A stretch of DNA of 21,423 bases. Origin: a virus. Location of the stretch: positions 1-21,423 of the IMG/VR virus record IMGVR_UViG_3300030107_001718, one strand, 5' to 3'. Shown piece after piece: positions 214 through 9,680 of the stretch (position 1 is its first letter; every line of letters starts with the position of its first letter). Below the pieces are notes generated by a model. That model was given only the letters and a program-made list of their open reading frames with translations, was not told where the DNA came from and did not search any database. The position numbers and the translations under genes are program-made.

Positions 214-1164
214 ATGGCACTTACTTTTCTTACATTGACTAACCGTGTTATAGTTCGTATGAATGAGGTACAACTAACTGATACTACTTTTAGCAATGCT
301 AGAGGCGTTCAAGTACAGTGTCAAAATGCAGTTAATGAAGCAATAAGATATATTAATCAAAGAGAGTTTGGTTATTCTTTTAATCATGCTGTAGAAACAA
401 AAACACTCACGGCAGGAGTTGTAAGATACTCTCTGCCTACAGATGCTAAATCTGTAGATTATGCAACTGCAAGAATAAAAAAAGATGCAGACTTATCTGT
501 TACTGGTAATAATTTAACAACTTTAAACTATAATGAATATATACAAAAAGAGTTTGCTAATCAAGAAGACGATATTAAATCCACAACTATTAATGCATCA
601 TCAGGTTTATCAGCATCTGTAGAAACTATAACTGTGGCATCTACTACAGGGTTTAGTTCTACAGGAACTATACATGTAGGTGGAGAACAAATAACATATA
701 CAGGTAAATCAAGTAATGGTATTGACTTTACTGGATGTACTAGAGGGGCAAATAACACAACTGCAGCAACAATAGCAAATGGAACTACAGTTACACAATT
801 TGATCAAGGCAGTATTCCAGATTTTATTGTAAGAACCCCAGACAATAATTATTTATTATATCCTTATCCAGATAAACAATATGTGTTAACATTTGACTAC
901 TTTACTTTTCCTAGTGACCTATCTGCACATGGAGATACTACAAGTATACCCGATAGGTTTGCTCCTGTTATTGTAGATGGCGCTACTGCATTTGTATATC
1001 AGTATCGTGGAGAAACAGGTCAATATCAATTAAACTTTCAAAGATTTGATCAAGGTATAAAAAATATGCAAAGTCTTCTTATCAATAAGTATGAGTATGT
1101 TCGGTCTACTTATATTCAAAGGTCTGCTGGATATAACGCATTTGCATCTGGAGTTTCTATCTAA
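214..1164 (+). CDS. Probable head-tail adaptor protein with an inserted module
   Basis: This 316-aa protein has the layout of short-tail adaptor (connector) proteins of the P22 gp4/SU10-adaptor type. Residues 1-120 form a mostly helical N-terminal part (QCQNAVNEAIRYINQREFGY) followed by a strand-rich stretch. A segment around 200-235 reads PDFIVRTPDNNYLLYPYPDK, and a helical C-terminus (about 245-305) is of the kind that inserts at the portal. Residues ~126-196 look like a separate inserted module (ASTTGFSSTGTIHVGGEQIT, ending near TRGANNTTAA) that also occurs in the next gene. A purine-rich site (AAGGG at 203-207) supports the ATG at 214 over the internal ATG at 259. The stop overlaps the start of the nozzle gene as TAATG. 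The adaptor call is an inference from recalled family sequences and gene order. Confidence 0.6.
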   Translation: MALTFLTLTNRVIVRMNEVQLTDTTFSNARGVQVQCQNAVNEAIRYINQREFGYSFNHAVETKTLTAGVVRYSLPTDAKSVDYATARIKKDADLSVTGNNLTTLNYNEYIQKEFANQEDDIKSTTINASSGLSASVETITVASTTGFSSTGTIHVGGEQITYTGKSSNGIDFTGCTRGANNTTAATIANGTTVTQFDQGSIPDFIVRTPDNNYLLYPYPDKQYVLTFDYFTFPSDLSAHGDTTSIPDRFAPVIVDGATAFVYQYRGETGQYQLNFQRFDQGIKNMQSLLINKYEYVRSTYIQRSAGYNAFASGVSI

Positions 1165-2903
1165 TGCCAGATTTATCTCAAGCACAACCTGTTGCGTTTA
1201 ATTGTGAGGGTGGCTTAGTTCTTAATCGTTCTGCCTTTTTAATGCAACCAGGAGAAGCATTAGAGTTAGAAAATTTTGAACCTGACATTGAGGGTGGATA
1301 CAGAAGAATTAGTGGGTTTAGAAAATTTGTAAATCAAATTGTTCCACAAACATCATCTAGCTCTGAAAAAATATTAATGGTACTTACTTTTCAAAATAAA
1401 GTGCTTGCAGCTAGAGGAGAAAAAATATATAATTCAGCATCTACTGAACTTTCGGCTGTAATAGCTGCAGATACAGGTATGACAGGATCAGGAACTATAT
1501 CAGTAGATAGCACAACGGGATTTTCTAGTAGTGGCACGTTACAAATAAACAGTGAAAAATTTACATATACAGGTGTTACCGCTAGTACCTTTACAGGAGT
1601 AACTCGTGCTGCGTCAAGCACTTCTGCTGCAGCACATGTAATTGATGATGTTGTATCTTTAGATTGGACAGAAATAGATAGTGGTAGAACTAATGCAGTT
1701 AAATATAGAGTTGAAAGATTTAATTTTGATGGCACAGATAAAATAATAGTAGTAGATGAAGCAAATGCACCAACTGTATTTAATAGTTCTTTAAGTGCAA
1801 CAGACGTTAGTGAATCCTCTGTGGCTGGTTCTAAATTTGTTGCAGCTTATAAAGCACACATGTTTTATGCAGGTAAATCAAGCTCTCCACAAGAATTAGT
1901 TTTTAGTGTGCCAAATGATGAAGATAATTTTAATACAGGCAGTGGTGCTGGAAGTATTAAAGTAGATGATACTATAACAGGATTAAAATCTTTTCGTGAT
2001 TCATTATTTATTTTTTGTGAAAATAGAATATTTAAATTAACAGGAAATACTACTTCAGATTTTGCAATACAGCCCGTTACACGAAATATTGGTTGTATTA
2101 ATGGAGATACTATACAAGAATTTGCTGGTGATTTAATATTTCTTGGTCCAGATGGTTTAAGAACTGTTGCTGGTACTGCTAGAATTGGTGACGTTGAACT
2201 TGGTACTATTAGTAGAAACGTTCAATCATTATTTGATGCAGCTATAAAAGATTCTGCTTTATTTGAAAGTGTTGTTATACAAGATAAAACACAATATAGA
2301 ATATTTTTTACAAAAGATGGTCAATCTCAAAAAATTACTAGGGGCGTAATAGCAGTAAGAAAAGCAGATAAATATGAGTTTTCAGAAATACGTGGAATAA
2401 AACCTACATCTACAGACACTTTTGTAGAGGCAGGAGATGTGATAGTTTTACACGGTGATTTTGATGGATTTGTGCATAGGCAAGAGGTTGGTAATACGTA
2501 TGATGGCACATCAATATTAGGAAAATACAGAAGTCCTGATTTAAGTTTTGGTGACACTGGCATACGAAAGCATATGCAACGTGTTATTATAAACTATAAA
2601 CCTGAATCTGCAATTGATGCAGATCTTATAGTGCGGTATGATAATGAAAATGCTGACTCAGCAAGACCTGCTGCATATGCTTTAGACTCTTCAGATGTTG
2701 CTGCTCAGTTTGGTGTGGCTACATTTAGTGGTGGTGCTACAGGTGCTAGATTTGTATTTGGTGGTGCAATCCAACCACTGATTAGACAATCCGTGGAGGG
2801 GTCAGGGTTTTCTGTAATATTAAGAGTAAATGATGGTGGAGAAACTGCTCCATATTCATTAAAAGGATTTCAATTAGAGTACCAACTCGGAGGAAGACGT
2901 TAA
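1164..2903 (+). CDS. Probable tail nozzle (tail tubular/stabilisation) protein
   Basis: This 579-aa protein starts with the pattern expected of short-tail nozzle proteins: a polar head, then MQPGEALELENFEPDIEGGY, then strand-rich sequence reminiscent of a beta-propeller (for example KIYNSA, KIIVVDEANAPTVFN, KSFRDSLFIFCENRIFKLTG, GDLIFLGPDGLRTVAGT). In podoviruses this protein forms the distal tube below the adaptor, and here it follows the adaptor directly. Residues ~103-166 carry the module shared with the adaptor (STTGFSSSGTLQINSEKFTY, then FTGVTRAASSTSAAAH). The start overlaps the previous stop (TAATG), with a GGAG site at 1150-1153. No catalytic motif is visible. The assignment rests on recalled similarity and gene order. 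Confidence 0.6.
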   Translation: MPDLSQAQPVAFNCEGGLVLNRSAFLMQPGEALELENFEPDIEGGYRRISGFRKFVNQIVPQTSSSSEKILMVLTFQNKVLAARGEKIYNSASTELSAVIAADTGMTGSGTISVDSTTGFSSSGTLQINSEKFTYTGVTASTFTGVTRAASSTSAAAHVIDDVVSLDWTEIDSGRTNAVKYRVERFNFDGTDKIIVVDEANAPTVFNSSLSATDVSESSVAGSKFVAAYKAHMFYAGKSSSPQELVFSVPNDEDNFNTGSGAGSIKVDDTITGLKSFRDSLFIFCENRIFKLTGNTTSDFAIQPVTRNIGCINGDTIQEFAGDLIFLGPDGLRTVAGTARIGDVELGTISRNVQSLFDAAIKDSALFESVVIQDKTQYRIFFTKDGQSQKITRGVIAVRKADKYEFSEIRGIKPTSTDTFVEAGDVIVLHGDFDGFVHRQEVGNTYDGTSILGKYRSPDLSFGDTGIRKHMQRVIINYKPESAIDADLIVRYDNENADSARPAAYALDSSDVAAQFGVATFSGGATGARFVFGGAIQPLIRQSVEGSGFSVILRVNDGGETAPYSLKGFQLEYQLGGRR

Positions 2904-5900
2904 ATGGGTTCTACATATACAAGACAATCTTCGTTTGCTGACGGTGATGTTATTACAGCCGATCTATTTAATAATGAATATGATCAGTTATTAGCAGCAT
3001 TTGCAGCAACAACAGGACACACACATGATGGCACCTCTGCAGAGGGTGGGCCTATAACTAAATTACTAGGTAACAGTATTACACTTGGTGCAGGTACAGC
3101 AGGTACAGATGTTACTATAACTTTTGATGGCGAGACTAATGATGGTGAACTGAAGTGGATGGAAGACGAGGACTACTTTGAGTTCTCTGATGATATACTT
3201 ATAGCCTCTACAGAGAAGCTACAATTTCGTGATACTGCTATCTATATTAATTCTAGCACAGATGGACAACTTGATCTTGTTGCAGATACAGAAATACAAA
3301 TAGCAGCTACAACCATTGATATTAACGGTGCAGTAGATATCTCTGGTAATCTTTCGGTTGGTGGTAACTTAGACGTTACAGGTACATTTGATCTTAGTGA
3401 TTCTAATTTTACAAATGCAGGTAACATACAGCTTGATAGTATATCAGGTGATGCAGATACAAACACAAGTATTACGTTTAGTGGCTCTGATGTAATTACT
3501 GTAGCTACAGGTGGCACTACATCTTTTACCGTGGATGCAAGTCAAAACATATTAATGAACGCTGCACAGAAAGTCCAGTTCCGCGATACTGCTCTTACTA
3601 TTAACTCTAGCACTGATGGTCAGCTAGACATTGACGCAGATACAGAGTTAGAAATAACTGCACCTACTGTAGACATAAACGCATCTACTGCAGTTCTAGT
3701 AAGTAATGACTTAAAATTAGACAGTGACTCTGCCGTATTAGGCTTTGGTGCAGACAACGATACTACACTTACACACACAGATGGCACAGGTCTTACATTA
3801 AATAGTACAAACAAGCTGACCTTTGGTGACGCTGCGTCATTTGTACAGCAGTCATCTGATGGTGTGTTACGCATAGACGGTGAGGCTACAGTTGACATTA
3901 ACGCTTCTACTGCAGTCACAGTTAGCAATGATTTAAAACTTGACAGTGATGCTGCTGTGCTGGGCTTTGGTGCAGATAATGATGTCACACTTACACACGT
4001 AGCTGACACAGGATTACTTCTTAACAGCACTAGTGTTATTCAATTCAACGATGCAAGTCAAAAGATAGGTGCTCCTAATGCAACTACACTTGACATTGAT
4101 GCAACAGATGAAATAGAACTTAATGCTACACTTGTAGATGTTAACGCTAACCTAGATGTAAGTGGAACATATACAGGTGCTGGTCTTATGACTACAGGTG
4201 GTAACATAGTTATACCTGATGCTGGCAATATTGGTTCAGCTAGTGATACTGATGCTATAGCTATAGGTGCTGACGGTGATGTTACACTTACCCAAGACTT
4301 AGAGTTACAACACGATGCTGCAACATTATCCTTTGGTGCTGACAACGATGTTGTTCTTACACACGTAGCTGACACAGGACTGTTACTTAACAGCACTATG
4401 GCTTTGCAGTTTAATGATGCATCACAATTTATAAACGCTCCTAGCGCAACTGTGCTAGATATTAACGCTACAGATGAGATAGAACTTAACGCTACGCTTG
4501 TGGATGTCAACGCTAACTTAGACGTAAGCGGCACGTATACTGGTGGTGGTCTTATGACTACGGGTGGTAACATAGTCATACCTGATGCAGGTAATATAGG
4601 TTCAGCTAGTGACACTGACGCTATAGCTATTGCGTCTGATGGTGTAGTGACATTAACGCAAAAACTAATTGGCACAGAGTTAGATATCTCTGGCGATATA
4701 GACGTAGACGGTACGACTAATCTAGATGTTACAAATATTGTAGGTGATCTTACTGTAACAGGAGATACTGCCACCTTTACATCAACAAATGCTGAAGACC
4801 CCTTAATAATTATCAAAGACACAACTAATGACGCTAATGCTGCGAGGCTTCGTTTTGTAAAAGACAAAGGCGCTGCTGGCGCTGATGATGATGATATTGG
4901 CACAATAGAGTTTTTTGCTGATAATGACGCCCAAGAACAGACTAAATTTGCATTAATTCGTGCAGAAGTTGCAGATGCTTCTGACGGTGCTGAAGGTGGT
5001 AAACTAAGACTTCAAGTTGCTTCCCATGATGGGGAGATGCAAAATGGTCTTATAATAACCGATGGCAGTGCAGAGGATGAAATAGATGTAACTATTGGTA
5101 ATGGTGCAAATTCTATTACTAGTGTGGTTGGTAACTTTCAAATTAAAGATGGCGGCACTATTGGTGTTGCATCAGATGCAGATGCTATTACCATTGCTTC
5201 TGATGGGCAGGTGACTTTTAGTCAAGCTATATCTGGCACATCCGCAACTTTTACAACTGCTGATAATACCACTCAACTGTCTCTTGTTTCTACAGATACA
5301 GATGCAAGTGTTGGTCCTAGTTTAAATTTATATCGTAACTCCTCTAGTCCTGCTGATAATGACATAGCTGGTAGAATTCAATATACTTCTCGTAATGATA
5401 ATTCTGAGAATGTTACATATGCAGAAATACATATTAGTACCCCTGATGTTTCTGACGGTTCTGAAGATGGTCAACTTCATATTGATACAATGGTTGCAGG
5501 CACTTCAAGAAGTCGTATAAAGTTAATGCCTGCTGAAACAGTACTTAACGAAAACGCTATTGACCTAGACTTCCGTGTTGAAAGTAATGGCAATGAAAAT
5601 ATGCTGTTTGTTGATGGTGGTAATAACGGAGTTGGTATTGGAACAAATTCCCCTAGTGCAGCTTTGCAAGTTGAAGGTACAACAAACGGTTTACAATCTG
5701 TTTTTGGTTTAGATTCATCTGGTTTAAAGATTAGCACATTTCAAAAAACAGATAATGATGCTGGTGTAATACTAGATGCACAAGAATCTTCTAATGGTAC
5801 ATTGACGTTTGCAACGGCTGGCACAGAACGTCTTCGTATTGCCACAGATGGTTCACTATCAACAAATACGTCTGGTACATCTAACGTTAGGTTTGGTGTA

Positions 5901-8900
5901 AACGCAGGTAACAGTATTGCGTCTGGCGGTAACTATAATGTTGTTGTAGGTGATGAAGCTGGTACTGCTATTACTACAGGTGATTTCAATACAGCTTTAG
6001 GTTTTGAAGCACTTGCAGCCACTACGGATAGAAATAGTAATACTGCTCTTGGTGCTCAAACACTTAAAACAAATGTAAATGGAGCTAAAAATACTGCTGT
6101 AGGCTCTGGTGCATTACTTACTATGAACCCTGCAACAGACACAGATACTCACAATGTAGCTGTAGGTTTTGATGCAGGTGGTGACGTTACAACAGGTGTG
6201 AGAAATACTTTAATTGGTAGTTTAGCAGGGACTGTACTTACTACAGGCATAAGAAATGTAGCAGTAGGTTTTCAGGCATTAACTACAGATACAAAAGGTC
6301 AAAGATCTGTTGCAATAGGCCATAATGCACTTAGTGTTCAAAACTTCACTACAGCTACAGATAGTTTTAACGTGGCTGTTGGACATGAAGCAGGTGCAGC
6401 AGTCACAACAGGCACAAGAAATACTATTGTAGGTGCAATAGCAGGTGATGCTTTTACAATTGGCTTTAATAATATAGCAATTGGTTACGATGCTATGGGT
6501 GCAAATACAGCATCTGGTGCAAATGTAGCTGTTGGTTATGAGGCAATGCAAGCCTATAACGACACTAATGAATTAAGTCGTTTTAATACTGCTGTGGGAA
6601 CACAAGCAGGTAAGGCACTTACAACAGGCGTAGAAAATACCCTCATAGGTGGATTAGCAGGAGATGCTCTTACTGATGCAGATAGTAATGTGGCTGTTGG
6701 CAATGCAGCGTTAGGCTCAGATACGTTAGGTTCAAGGTCTACAGCAATAGGGGCTGGCGCTCTCAATGAACAAAATTTTACCACAGCAACAAATAGTTAT
6801 AATACAGCAGTTGGTTTTGCGGCAGGTAATAGAGTCTCAACAGGTGTTCAGAATACTTTAATTGGTGCAAATAATGGTATTGATTTATTATCAGGTAATT
6901 ACAATGTAGCAGTTGGCTATTTAGCATTATTTGAAGATCAGCACGGTTCTGAGTCTGTAGCTGTCGGTTATGGGGCATTACAAAATCAAAGATTTACTAC
7001 GGCCACAGATAGTTTTAATACAGCAGTGGGATATGCAGCAGGACTATCAAATACTACAGGAACTAATAACACTTTCATTGGTGCAGAGGCAGGTGAGGCA
7101 AATACTACTGGTGCTAACAATACTGCTGTCGGTGCATTAGCTTTAGAGTCAACTACAGAAGGAACTAACAATACTGCTGTAGGGCAAGCATCATTGTTTG
7201 AAAATACTTTAGGATCAAAAAGTATTGCTGTTGGACGAGGCACGTTACAAAATCAAAATTATGCTACAGCTACAGATGGTCATAACGTGGCTGTTGGCCA
7301 TGAGGCAGGTAATGATATTACAACAGGTGTACAAAACACCCTTGTCGGTGGTTTATCGGGGGACGCATTAACGGATGCAGACTACAATGTAGCAATAGGA
7401 ATGGGTACATTAACTAGTGATACACTAGGTTCAAGAAGTGTTGCTGTAGGTGCTTTTGCTTTAGAATCTCAAAACTTCACTACAGCTACAGATAGTCATA
7501 ACGTGGCTGTTGGTAATCATGCAGGACTATCAGTAACAACAGGAACACTCAACACTCTTATTGGTTCACTAGCTGGCGATGCACTTACAGCAGCAGACTC
7601 AAATACAGCAATAGGTTATGTAGCTTTATCAGCAGATACTAGAGGTGAAAGAGCAATAGCCATTGGTGAAGGTGCTTTATTTAGTCAAAACTTTACCACA
7701 GAAACAAATAACTACAATGTAGCTATTGGTTATAATGCAGGTTATTCAGTTTCAACAGGCACACAAAACACCCTTATAGGTGGTTTAGCAGGTGATGCTC
7801 TTACAGATGCAGATTTTAATGTAGCAGTGGGGTATCAAGCACTTACAACGGATACTCTTGGAAGTCGTACAACAGCTATAGGTAGATTTGCAGGGTACAA
7901 TCAAAATTTTGATACAGCTACAGATACTAACAATGTTTATGTTGGATATTACGCAGGTGCAAATGTTACAACAGGTTTGTCAAATACCCTTATAGGTACA
8001 GAAGCAGGTGATGCACTTACTGATGCAGACTTTAATGTTGCAATAGGTAAGGATGCTTTGGGTCAAGATACTTTAGGTAGTAAATCAGTAGCTATTGGTA
8101 CTGCCGCATTAAATGCACAAAACTTCACTACAGCTACAGACAGTAATAATACAGCCGTTGGATATTTTGCAGGACTATCAGTAACAACTGGCACACTCAA
8201 TACACTTGTGGGTGCTAATACAGGGGATGCTATTACCACAGGTTTTGATAACGTTGCTGTGGGCAGGTCTGCTTTAACTGGAGAAGATACAGGTAGAAAA
8301 AACGTAGCTATAGGTAGTTCTGCATTAGAAGTACAAAATAGTGATGTGGATAATTTAAACACTGCAGTAGGTTTTGAAGCAGGTAAAGCAGTCTCAACAG
8401 GTCAAAATAACGTAATTATTGGAGGTTTGGCAGGGGCCGCAAATGCTGATATGTCTGGTGAAACTCCTCTCACTACAGGAAACAATAATGTTTTAATTGG
8501 CACTAAATGTCAAACAGGGGCTGCTGATGCTGATGCACAAATTGCAATGGGTTTTGAGTGTACAGGGGCAAGTAATACAAGTGTAACTTTTGGAAAATCT
8601 ACAACAGATAGTAATATTGATTTTGGTGCTACTTCAATAACTGCTCCTTCAGATGAAAGATATAAAGAAAATATACAAACGTCTACTGCAGGACTTTTAT
8701 TTGTAAATGATTTACGCCCTGTAACTTTTCAATGGAAAAAAGAAAAAGATGTACCTGTAAATTCAAAGTCCTATAAAGAAAACTCTGATACAAGAGTTAT
8801 GAATTGTGGTGATAAAACAATGCACGGTTTTATTGCTCAAGAGGTTAAAACCGTAATAGATAATCACTCTGAAATAAAAGATGGTTTTCGTATGTGGACT

Positions 8901-9032
8901 GAACAAGAGGGAGCAGATAAAAGACAGAGATTAGCCCCAGGTGAACTAGTGCCAATCCTAGTCAAAGCAATCCAAGAACTATCAGCAAAGAACGATGCCT
9001 TAGAAGCACGTATAGCAACACTAGAAGGATAA
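2904..9032 (+). CDS. Giant tail fibre, YadA-like repeats and Peptidase_S74 chaperone
   Basis: This 2042-aa fibre protein probably forms a long trimer that binds the host surface. Residues 1-60 are a virion-attachment-like head (FADGDVITADLFNNEYDQLL). Residues ~100-610 are a shaft of long tandem repeats with FGADND-x-x-LTH and INSSTDGQLD motifs. Residues ~900-980 contain the fibre motif GVGIGTNSPSAALQVEG and then GTERLRIATDGSLS. Residues ~1002-1880 are YadA-like NxAVG/NTLIG repeats on a 72-residue super-repeat. The C-terminus is a Peptidase_S74 intramolecular chaperone: S1916 and K1921 in SDERYKEN match the known Ser-Lys self-cleavage dyad (five residues apart). The protein ends in a short coiled coil. 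In this family the ~127-aa chaperone folds the trimer and then cuts itself off; here that is inferred. GGAGG at 2889-2893 precedes the ATG, which directly follows the nozzle stop. Confidence 0.92.
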   Translation: MGSTYTRQSSFADGDVITADLFNNEYDQLLAAFAATTGHTHDGTSAEGGPITKLLGNSITLGAGTAGTDVTITFDGETNDGELKWMEDEDYFEFSDDILIASTEKLQFRDTAIYINSSTDGQLDLVADTEIQIAATTIDINGAVDISGNLSVGGNLDVTGTFDLSDSNFTNAGNIQLDSISGDADTNTSITFSGSDVITVATGGTTSFTVDASQNILMNAAQKVQFRDTALTINSSTDGQLDIDADTELEITAPTVDINASTAVLVSNDLKLDSDSAVLGFGADNDTTLTHTDGTGLTLNSTNKLTFGDAASFVQQSSDGVLRIDGEATVDINASTAVTVSNDLKLDSDAAVLGFGADNDVTLTHVADTGLLLNSTSVIQFNDASQKIGAPNATTLDIDATDEIELNATLVDVNANLDVSGTYTGAGLMTTGGNIVIPDAGNIGSASDTDAIAIGADGDVTLTQDLELQHDAATLSFGADNDVVLTHVADTGLLLNSTMALQFNDASQFINAPSATVLDINATDEIELNATLVDVNANLDVSGTYTGGGLMTTGGNIVIPDAGNIGSASDTDAIAIASDGVVTLTQKLIGTELDISGDIDVDGTTNLDVTNIVGDLTVTGDTATFTSTNAEDPLIIIKDTTNDANAARLRFVKDKGAAGADDDDIGTIEFFADNDAQEQTKFALIRAEVADASDGAEGGKLRLQVASHDGEMQNGLIITDGSAEDEIDVTIGNGANSITSVVGNFQIKDGGTIGVASDADAITIASDGQVTFSQAISGTSATFTTADNTTQLSLVSTDTDASVGPSLNLYRNSSSPADNDIAGRIQYTSRNDNSENVTYAEIHISTPDVSDGSEDGQLHIDTMVAGTSRSRIKLMPAETVLNENAIDLDFRVESNGNENMLFVDGGNNGVGIGTNSPSAALQVEGTTNGLQSVFGLDSSGLKISTFQKTDNDAGVILDAQESSNGTLTFATAGTERLRIATDGSLSTNTSGTSNVRFGVNAGNSIASGGNYNVVVGDEAGTAITTGDFNTALGFEALAATTDRNSNTALGAQTLKTNVNGAKNTAVGSGALLTMNPATDTDTHNVAVGFDAGGDVTTGVRNTLIGSLAGTVLTTGIRNVAVGFQALTTDTKGQRSVAIGHNALSVQNFTTATDSFNVAVGHEAGAAVTTGTRNTIVGAIAGDAFTIGFNNIAIGYDAMGANTASGANVAVGYEAMQAYNDTNELSRFNTAVGTQAGKALTTGVENTLIGGLAGDALTDADSNVAVGNAALGSDTLGSRSTAIGAGALNEQNFTTATNSYNTAVGFAAGNRVSTGVQNTLIGANNGIDLLSGNYNVAVGYLALFEDQHGSESVAVGYGALQNQRFTTATDSFNTAVGYAAGLSNTTGTNNTFIGAEAGEANTTGANNTAVGALALESTTEGTNNTAVGQASLFENTLGSKSIAVGRGTLQNQNYATATDGHNVAVGHEAGNDITTGVQNTLVGGLSGDALTDADYNVAIGMGTLTSDTLGSRSVAVGAFALESQNFTTATDSHNVAVGNHAGLSVTTGTLNTLIGSLAGDALTAADSNTAIGYVALSADTRGERAIAIGEGALFSQNFTTETNNYNVAIGYNAGYSVSTGTQNTLIGGLAGDALTDADFNVAVGYQALTTDTLGSRTTAIGRFAGYNQNFDTATDTNNVYVGYYAGANVTTGLSNTLIGTEAGDALTDADFNVAIGKDALGQDTLGSKSVAIGTAALNAQNFTTATDSNNTAVGYFAGLSVTTGTLNTLVGANTGDAITTGFDNVAVGRSALTGEDTGRKNVAIGSSALEVQNSDVDNLNTAVGFEAGKAVSTGQNNVIIGGLAGAANADMSGETPLTTGNNNVLIGTKCQTGAADADAQIAMGFECTGASNTSVTFGKSTTDSNIDFGATSITAPSDERYKENIQTSTAGLLFVNDLRPVTFQWKKEKDVPVNSKSYKENSDTRVMNCGDKTMHGFIAQEVKTVIDNHSEIKDGFRMWTEQEGADKRQRLAPGELVPILVKAIQELSAKNDALEARIATLEG
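3246..3956 (+). repeat. Fibre shaft repeats (INSSTDGQLD and NDLKLDSD units)
   Basis: The motif INSSTDGQLD is encoded at 3246 and again at 3600, 354 bp (118 codons) apart, each followed by a DINA-type strand. Further on, DINASTAV, then VSNDLKLDSD and the FGADND-x-x-LTH motif recur at a 222-bp (74-codon) step (FGADND copies begin near 3741 and 3963). The copies keep the amino acids while the codons differ, so the repeats are not recent. They presumably form a repetitive beta-structured trimeric shaft. Confidence 0.75.
3963..4694 (+). repeat. 366-bp tandem duplication in the fibre shaft
   Basis: Two adjacent units (3963-4328 and 4329-4694) encode nearly the same 122 residues. Each contains in order FGADND-V, LTHVADTGLLLNST, QFNDASQ, DATDEIELNATLVDVNANLD, SGTYTG, LMTTGGNIVIPDAGNIGSAS and DTDAIAI. 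The last ~15 residues of the second unit diverge. Many synonymous codons differ (for example AATGCT against AACGCT), so the protein is constrained while the DNA has drifted. This is a beta-structured shaft segment. Confidence 0.85.
5907..8549 (+). repeat. YadA-like stalk: 72-codon (216-bp) super-repeat, about 12 units
   Basis: Units begin at 5907, 6123, 6339, 6555, 6771, 6987, 7254, 7470, 7686, 7902, 8118 and 8334. All steps are exactly 216 bp except 6987 to 7254, which is 267 bp. Each unit holds four NxxxG motifs of the trimeric-autotransporter head type: NVAVG, NTLIG, NVAVG and SVAIG. The typical order is QNFTTATDSxNVAVG, then AGDALTDADxNVAVG, then DTLGSRSVAIG. The first and last units are the most degenerate. 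The longer unit carries one extra 17-residue element. In YadA-type proteins such repeats form a trimeric left-handed beta-roll; that fold is inferred here. Confidence 0.93.
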
Positions 9033-9035
9033 ACA

Positions 9036-9680
9036 ATGGAACTACTAGCAAGAAACTTCCCTAACATTGGGGTAGTAGAAGGAAAACTATCAGAAGAAAT
9101 AGTTGATGACTTGTGGACATTAATAAACGAAGCAAGAGAAAAGCCAGAAGATATGAAGCCTGAACTAGCAGGTAATATCAGTTCTTCTATTAGGTTAGAT
9201 AATAACTCTGACTTAATGACTGACTTTGTAGGTGAGGTGCTACCAGCCTGTATAAAGAGACACATGCAAGAGTATGGGCCACCTTATCGACTGACCATGA
9301 AGGAAGGTGAGACATTTAACTTAGAAAGCCTGTGGGTAAACTTTCAAAAGCAAAACGAGTTTAACCCACCACACGATCACGCAGGTGTGTACAGCTTTGT
9401 AATATGGATGCAGATACCTACGTCATACGAAGAACAACGTAAGCTACCTATTTGTGCAGAGTCAAATGCAGACAATCACATTAGCAACTTTGCATTTAGC
9501 TACACAAATACGTTAGGCAGAGTGTCAACCTTTGCATACAATATGGAGAAAGAAGCTGAGGGGTATATGGTTATGTTTCCTTCGTGCTTACTTCATCAGG
9601 TCTTTCCGTTTTACAATGATGACGGTGAAAGAATATCAATATCTGGTAATATTAATATAGGAGAAATGAAAAATGACTAG
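9036..9680 (+). CDS. 2OG-Fe(II) oxygenase (PF13759-like)
   Basis: This 214-aa protein has the layout of the putative 2OG-Fe(II) oxygenase family common in marine phages. In the pattern NPPHDHAGVYSFVIWMQIP, H113 and H115 are the probable first metal ligands in an HxH arrangement. The distal histidine is H187 (CLLHQVFPF), and R199 in ERISISGNI is the probable 2-oxoglutarate-binding arginine. Such enzymes couple oxidative decarboxylation of 2-oxoglutarate to hydroxylation of a substrate, which is unknown here. The gene starts three bases after the fibre stop with AAGGA at 9025-9029, so it is translated together with the fibre. Hydroxylation of a virion protein is one possible role. The family call is firm; the substrate is open. 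Confidence 0.85.
   Translation: MELLARNFPNIGVVEGKLSEEIVDDLWTLINEAREKPEDMKPELAGNISSSIRLDNNSDLMTDFVGEVLPACIKRHMQEYGPPYRLTMKEGETFNLESLWVNFQKQNEFNPPHDHAGVYSFVIWMQIPTSYEEQRKLPICAESNADNHISNFAFSYTNTLGRVSTFAYNMEKEAEGYMVMFPSCLLHQVFPFYNDDGERISISGNINIGEMKND

Follow-up and report, generated by a model that had tools for sequence, protein, structure and literature searches.

The window, by which we mean the whole stretch of DNA analysed (a 21.4-kb record of an HMO-2011-type marine podophage, perhaps a fragment), encodes an adaptor, or head-to-tail connector, and an adjacent nozzle protein, each containing one copy of a shared sequence module (Table 1). The nearest phage relatives of both proteins belong to Puniceispirillum phage HMO-2011, with about 56% identity over the aligned parts. 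The adaptor was recognised by the Pfam family SU10_adaptor (PF24175, 2.2e-15), by phrog_10775 (2.4e-38) and by its fold, the core of the model matching the adaptors of cyanophage A4 (Z 17.3), SU10 (Z 13.9) and T7 gp11 (Z about 11). Identification of the 579-aa protein came through PHROGs only (phrog_5107 at 4.8e-78 and phrog_578, 'head closure Hc3', at 5.2e-9), and these profile matches support its assignment as a P22 gp10-like nozzle. Phrog_5107 is labelled 'amidase', as is the HMO-2011 nozzle in RefSeq; the label is probably an annotation error. Judged by eye, the next gene (2904-9032) encodes a 2042-aa tail fibre whose many NTAVG/NVAVG-type repeats resemble those in the heads of YadA-type adhesins and whose C terminus has an S74-like chaperone region; it is followed by a 214-aa protein resembling 2OG-Fe(II) oxygenases (9036-9680).

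Table 1. Coordinates of the module, its carriers and other inserts; unprefixed positions refer to the window.
Feature	Position	Strand	Basis
Adaptor (head-to-tail connector) gene, 316 aa, one module	214..1164	+	SU10_adaptor, phrog_10775, fold
Adaptor copy of module, about aa 120-197	571..804	+	Alignment with nozzle; HMO-2011 adaptor without module; own six-strand domain
Nozzle gene, 579 aa, one module	1164..2903	+	phrog_5107, phrog_578; full-length HMO-2011-type relatives
Nozzle copy of module, about aa 91-167	1434..1664	+	Alignment with adaptor; HMO-2011 nozzle without module; model
HTVC033P-type adaptor insert	L084:6280-6663, L266:2891-3274, L304:2135-2518		
Nozzles with other inserts	L086:5001-7424, L087:5001-6812, L089, L090		
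SAR116 genomes with flagellar modules	L333, L334, L341, L382, L383, L389		
445-472-aa protein with divergent module	L381:2257-3651, L384:2704-4041, L397		

Adaptor aa 123-199 (nt 580-810) and nozzle aa 97-174 (nt 1452-1685) aligned locally with a score of 138, against a mean of 43.6 (s.d. 6.9) and a maximum of 80 in 1000 shuffles, which rules out chance or low complexity as the cause of the similarity. The similarity extends to the segments' DNA (28 vs a shuffled maximum of 17), and a search of the whole record found exactly these two copies. Once the matched parts were removed, the two proteins scored only 34, the level of background, so the surroundings are unrelated. A reading made earlier from the sequence alone had claimed both the similarity and the unrelated surroundings, placing the segments at aa 126-196 and 103-166. 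Those positions hold, but comparison with HMO-2011 gives slightly wider insertions: the HMO-2011 adaptor and nozzle measure 238 and 502 aa against 316 and 579 aa in the window, and the alignment gaps, which correspond to the module and are cleanly closed, span aa 120-197 of the adaptor and aa 91-167 of the nozzle. We regard it as close to certain that both segments represent the same mobile inserted domain.

The same strand pattern was predicted in both contexts, a comparison that the sequence-only reading had proposed as a check. Modelled alone with AlphaFold2 from 58 sequences, the nozzle module forms six strands (pLDDT 82.5), and in the model of the whole adaptor (57 sequences, pLDDT 86.2) residues 121-195 form a six-strand domain of their own, with the number and order of strands seen in the nozzle module. 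The module is thus predicted to be a compact, independently folding six-stranded beta-barrel of about 70-75 residues. The module part of the adaptor model matched a VP1 capsid-entry chain (9in6 chain M; Z 10.9, rmsd 1.6), a baseplate chain of phage JBD30 (8rk3 chain b; Z 10.3, rmsd 1.8), the Mystique tail tube (9n71; Z 8.4, rmsd 1.8), the Chi tail tip (8vjh; Z 8.1, rmsd 2.0) and the N-terminal barrels of F1-ATPase (Z about 7); the module model alone reached Z 8.0-8.6, close to values flagged as commonplace by the search tool. With the four solved phage barrels the module shares its fold over 68-74 residues (Z 8.1-10.9, rmsd 1.6-2.0), but at 13-22% identity and with no profile match the likeness is one of fold only. 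No family matching the module was found in Pfam or NCBIfam, and module profiles A1 and A3 detected no phage chain among PDB sequences; short haemagglutinin matches in that search (E 0.01-0.03) were taken as chance. Thirteen modules compared with Pfam at E up to 1 matched no Ig-like family (Big_1, Big_2, I-set, fn3), nor did the module alone match any carbohydrate-binding module (CBM) family in that comparison. The structural matches listed are small barrels with neither an Ig-like nor a CBM fold among them, both folds still being possible.

Both proteins have relatives without the segment, and the module was found in none of the HMO-2011-type isolates examined. Among 294 loci in which both insertion regions were visible, picked by similarity to particular queries so that the counts are not natural frequencies, the (adaptor, nozzle) copy numbers were (1,1) in 177, (0,0) in 91, (1,2) in 13, (0,1) in 7, (1,0) in 5 and (0,2) in one. 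Since six combinations occur, each copy must be optional. On a module-free tree of both proteins the adaptor state requires three changes, nozzle presence two and nozzle copy number seven. Within the HMO-2011 clade, the L179 and L213-type adaptors are occupied and close relatives are empty at the same gene position. The linkers of these occupied adaptors resemble those of the window adaptor ('QEDDV ... VAQF' in L179, 'QEDDI ... VTQF' in the window), so the module may equally well have reached them by recombination between adaptor genes or by new insertion. In some relatives (L046, L048, L050-L052, L072, L073, L075, L256, L272, L311 and L314) the nozzle has a second module, which follows the first by about 130 aa; in the module tree the second copies cluster as a single group nested with first copies.

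These copy-number states bear on whether the module is a structural buttress, lying between adjoining subunits, or between the ring of the adaptor and that of the nozzle, and stiffening the tail without host contact. The hub of the JBD30 baseplate contains a small six-stranded barrel described as stabilising the baseplate (PMC11445458), the JBD30 chain among our best structural matches is perhaps that hub chain, and loci with one copy mostly have both. However, either copy can occur alone and many relatives have none, which argues that neither is required for joining the rings. We therefore judge a buttress unlikely, at roughly one chance in four.

Other sequences are also found inserted at these sites or close to them. 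HTVC033P-type adaptors have a different insert of about 120 aa, which precedes the module site by about 20 residues and shows sub-threshold matches to the phage carbohydrate-binding domain CBM_4_9_1 (BppA) and to the GP4 fibre protein Gp80. Further inserts lie at or close to the module site in the nozzles of CRP-345, HTVC104P, CRP-212 and CRP-3, that of CRP-345 weakly matching the B domain of T5 pb9. Given these inserts, the module sites look like permissive exposed loops. Fibres of known podophages attach near the adaptor-nozzle boundary, and the sequence-only reading had offered a fibre-docking collar, with the modules as the attachment site, as one possible role. This suggestion fared badly: the first 110 aa of the fibre are alike with or without modules (the window and HMO-2011 share 54% over 89 aa), and L213-type phages, which have the adaptor module, keep an HMO-2011-like fibre start (85%). 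Given this conservation of the virion-end domain, fibre docking is very improbable.

The module is not confined to adaptors and P22-like nozzles. It also sits in T7-like nozzles, T4-like gp7, tailspike-like proteins and Phage-tail_3 proteins. Contig scans were made with a 6-sequence core alignment, because a 13-sequence alignment was too diverse. Its carriers include the 'tail tube B' of Pelagibacter Skadi phages, gp7-type baseplate wedge proteins of cyanophages (with weaker matches under gp15 and VrlC) and, on other contigs, members of a phrog_3287 group, Phage-tail_3 proteins and a pectate-lyase protein of tailspike type. Similar modules in structural proteins of other marine phages had indeed been mentioned in the sequence-only reading, and optional presence at both sites together with this spread through virion proteins bears out its idea of a mobile domain. 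That idea also withstood the two refuting outcomes named there, different folds for the two segments and homologues that never lack them. A contig labelled Ascidiaceihabitans (L358:3414-5642) encodes a 743-aa protein, and the module in it is the same, without any difference, as the one in tail tube B of pelagiphage Skadi; the protein is probably phage sequence within the Ascidiaceihabitans assembly.

Unexpectedly, and not anticipated in the sequence-only reading, a genome scan found the module at many loci of SAR116, the host group of HMO-2011. The SAR116 loci examined encode flagellin (Flagellin_N and Flagellin_C), the hook protein FlgE and FlgK, each with 3-4 tandem modules between conserved ends, and the modules of flagellin and FlgK correspond position by position. 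The genes sit in an ordinary flagellar cluster; by eye, the open frames between flgE and flgK are flgF, flgG, flgH, flgI and a short flgJ-like gene. Matches occurred in 46 of 136 genomes of the same order at 1e-6 and in 44 at 1e-8, against one of 385 in a class sample at 1e-8, namely the SAR116 reference itself (Fisher p 6e-29), these genomes being often incomplete and, where related, not independent. In a phylum sample (n=398) six other genomes matched, two of their proteins being Phage-tail_3-like. Several SAR116 genomes also have a divergent, weaker module in a 445-472-aa protein that adjoins a purM-like gene and has no Pfam match. No description of the module turned up in searches of the open-access literature for flagellin inserts of SAR116, Ig-like domains of phages and the capsid of VP1.

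Frequent gains, losses and duplications, together with many unrelated carriers, are what a neutral passenger would also produce, that is, a tolerated and easily copied domain spreading among exposed loops with no selected role. Conserved residues are, however, kept across carriers, the module is retained in many lineages, and it occurs in tandem in three SAR116 flagellar proteins; we give such neutrality about one chance in five.

Trees of the module, like the approximately unbiased (AU) tests made with them, comprise only some 76 columns. In both trees the nozzle modules, second copies included, cluster with the middle module of flagellin and FlgK (97/89 in one tree, 95/90 in the other), whereas adaptor modules fall elsewhere. 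A single clade of all flagellar modules was rejected (p 0.015), a single clade of adaptor and nozzle modules narrowly escaped rejection (p 0.074), and a nozzle clade excluding the flagellar modules was compatible with the data (p 0.48), all of these values being rough because the groups were named after the first tree had been seen. As the last arrangement fits, flagellin ancestry of the nozzle module is only a possibility. That one copy arose from the other by duplication, instead of each being acquired separately, could be suspected because the two genes are adjacent, and is consistent with the survival of the joint adaptor-nozzle clade in the AU test. Nevertheless, the best trees part the two kinds of module, as described above, and the window adaptor copy lies nearest by path to modules of T7-like nozzles. 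The trees thus favour a separate origin of the two copies, with the AU test borderline, and local duplication appears improbable.

Parallels for such a domain are known from both phages and flagella. Phage Ig-like domains are promiscuous in several virion protein classes, with their role unclear (Fraser et al. 2006, reviewed in PMC9022992); they are surface exposed and, in the cases tested, not essential, and some mutants are less infective (PMC9022992). The module is similarly promiscuous across virion protein classes, but it has no Ig-like Pfam match, is predicted to be a six-stranded barrel and also occurs in flagellar proteins of the host group. Giant flagellins of marine gammaproteobacteria have a large, variable, solvent-exposed insert between conserved ends, and phage are not mentioned in their description (PMC6248924). 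SAR116 flagellin resembles them as a protein of marine bacteria with a large insert between conserved ends; unlike theirs, its insert consists of a phage-tail module.

The best overall explanation, to which we give slightly less than even odds, is that the module is an exchangeable, surface-exposed decoration acting as a weak multivalent adhesin. The promiscuous barrel would sit in outward-facing loops of the adaptor and the nozzle, and its exposure on the virion surface is probable. With outward-facing loops and the ring sizes usual in podophage tails, a virion would display 12 modules around its adaptor and another 6 or 12 around its nozzle. As its presence is optional, the module would be dispensable for assembly, like the Ig-like domains of other phages. 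Recombination at the permissive loops would allow copies to be gained, swapped and lost. During adsorption the modules might adhere weakly and multivalently to the envelope or to extracellular polysaccharide, and those on host flagella might make the same kind of surface contact. Permissive exposed loops and flagellar carriers together make a surface role the economical reading. That this role is adhesion we hold tentatively; by analogy with the Ig-like domains of phages it is most likely, ahead of a structural buttress or a neutral passenger, and contact with host glycans by the module is possible. We think it doubtful, yet worth stating, that tail and flagellum came to share the module by transfer, that both use the same surface contact and that displaying a piece of the flagellum aids adsorption to the cell, to its flagellum or to the matrix to which the host sticks.

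Neither Pfam nor NCBIfam holds a match to the module family, which is carried by an abundant marine phage group, and we found no sequence relative of it in the PDB. It is common to marine phages and to the flagellin, hook protein and FlgK of the order of bacteria to which the type phage's host belongs. At both sites, nature provides pairs that differ in having or lacking the module, so that an effect on adsorption is directly testable.
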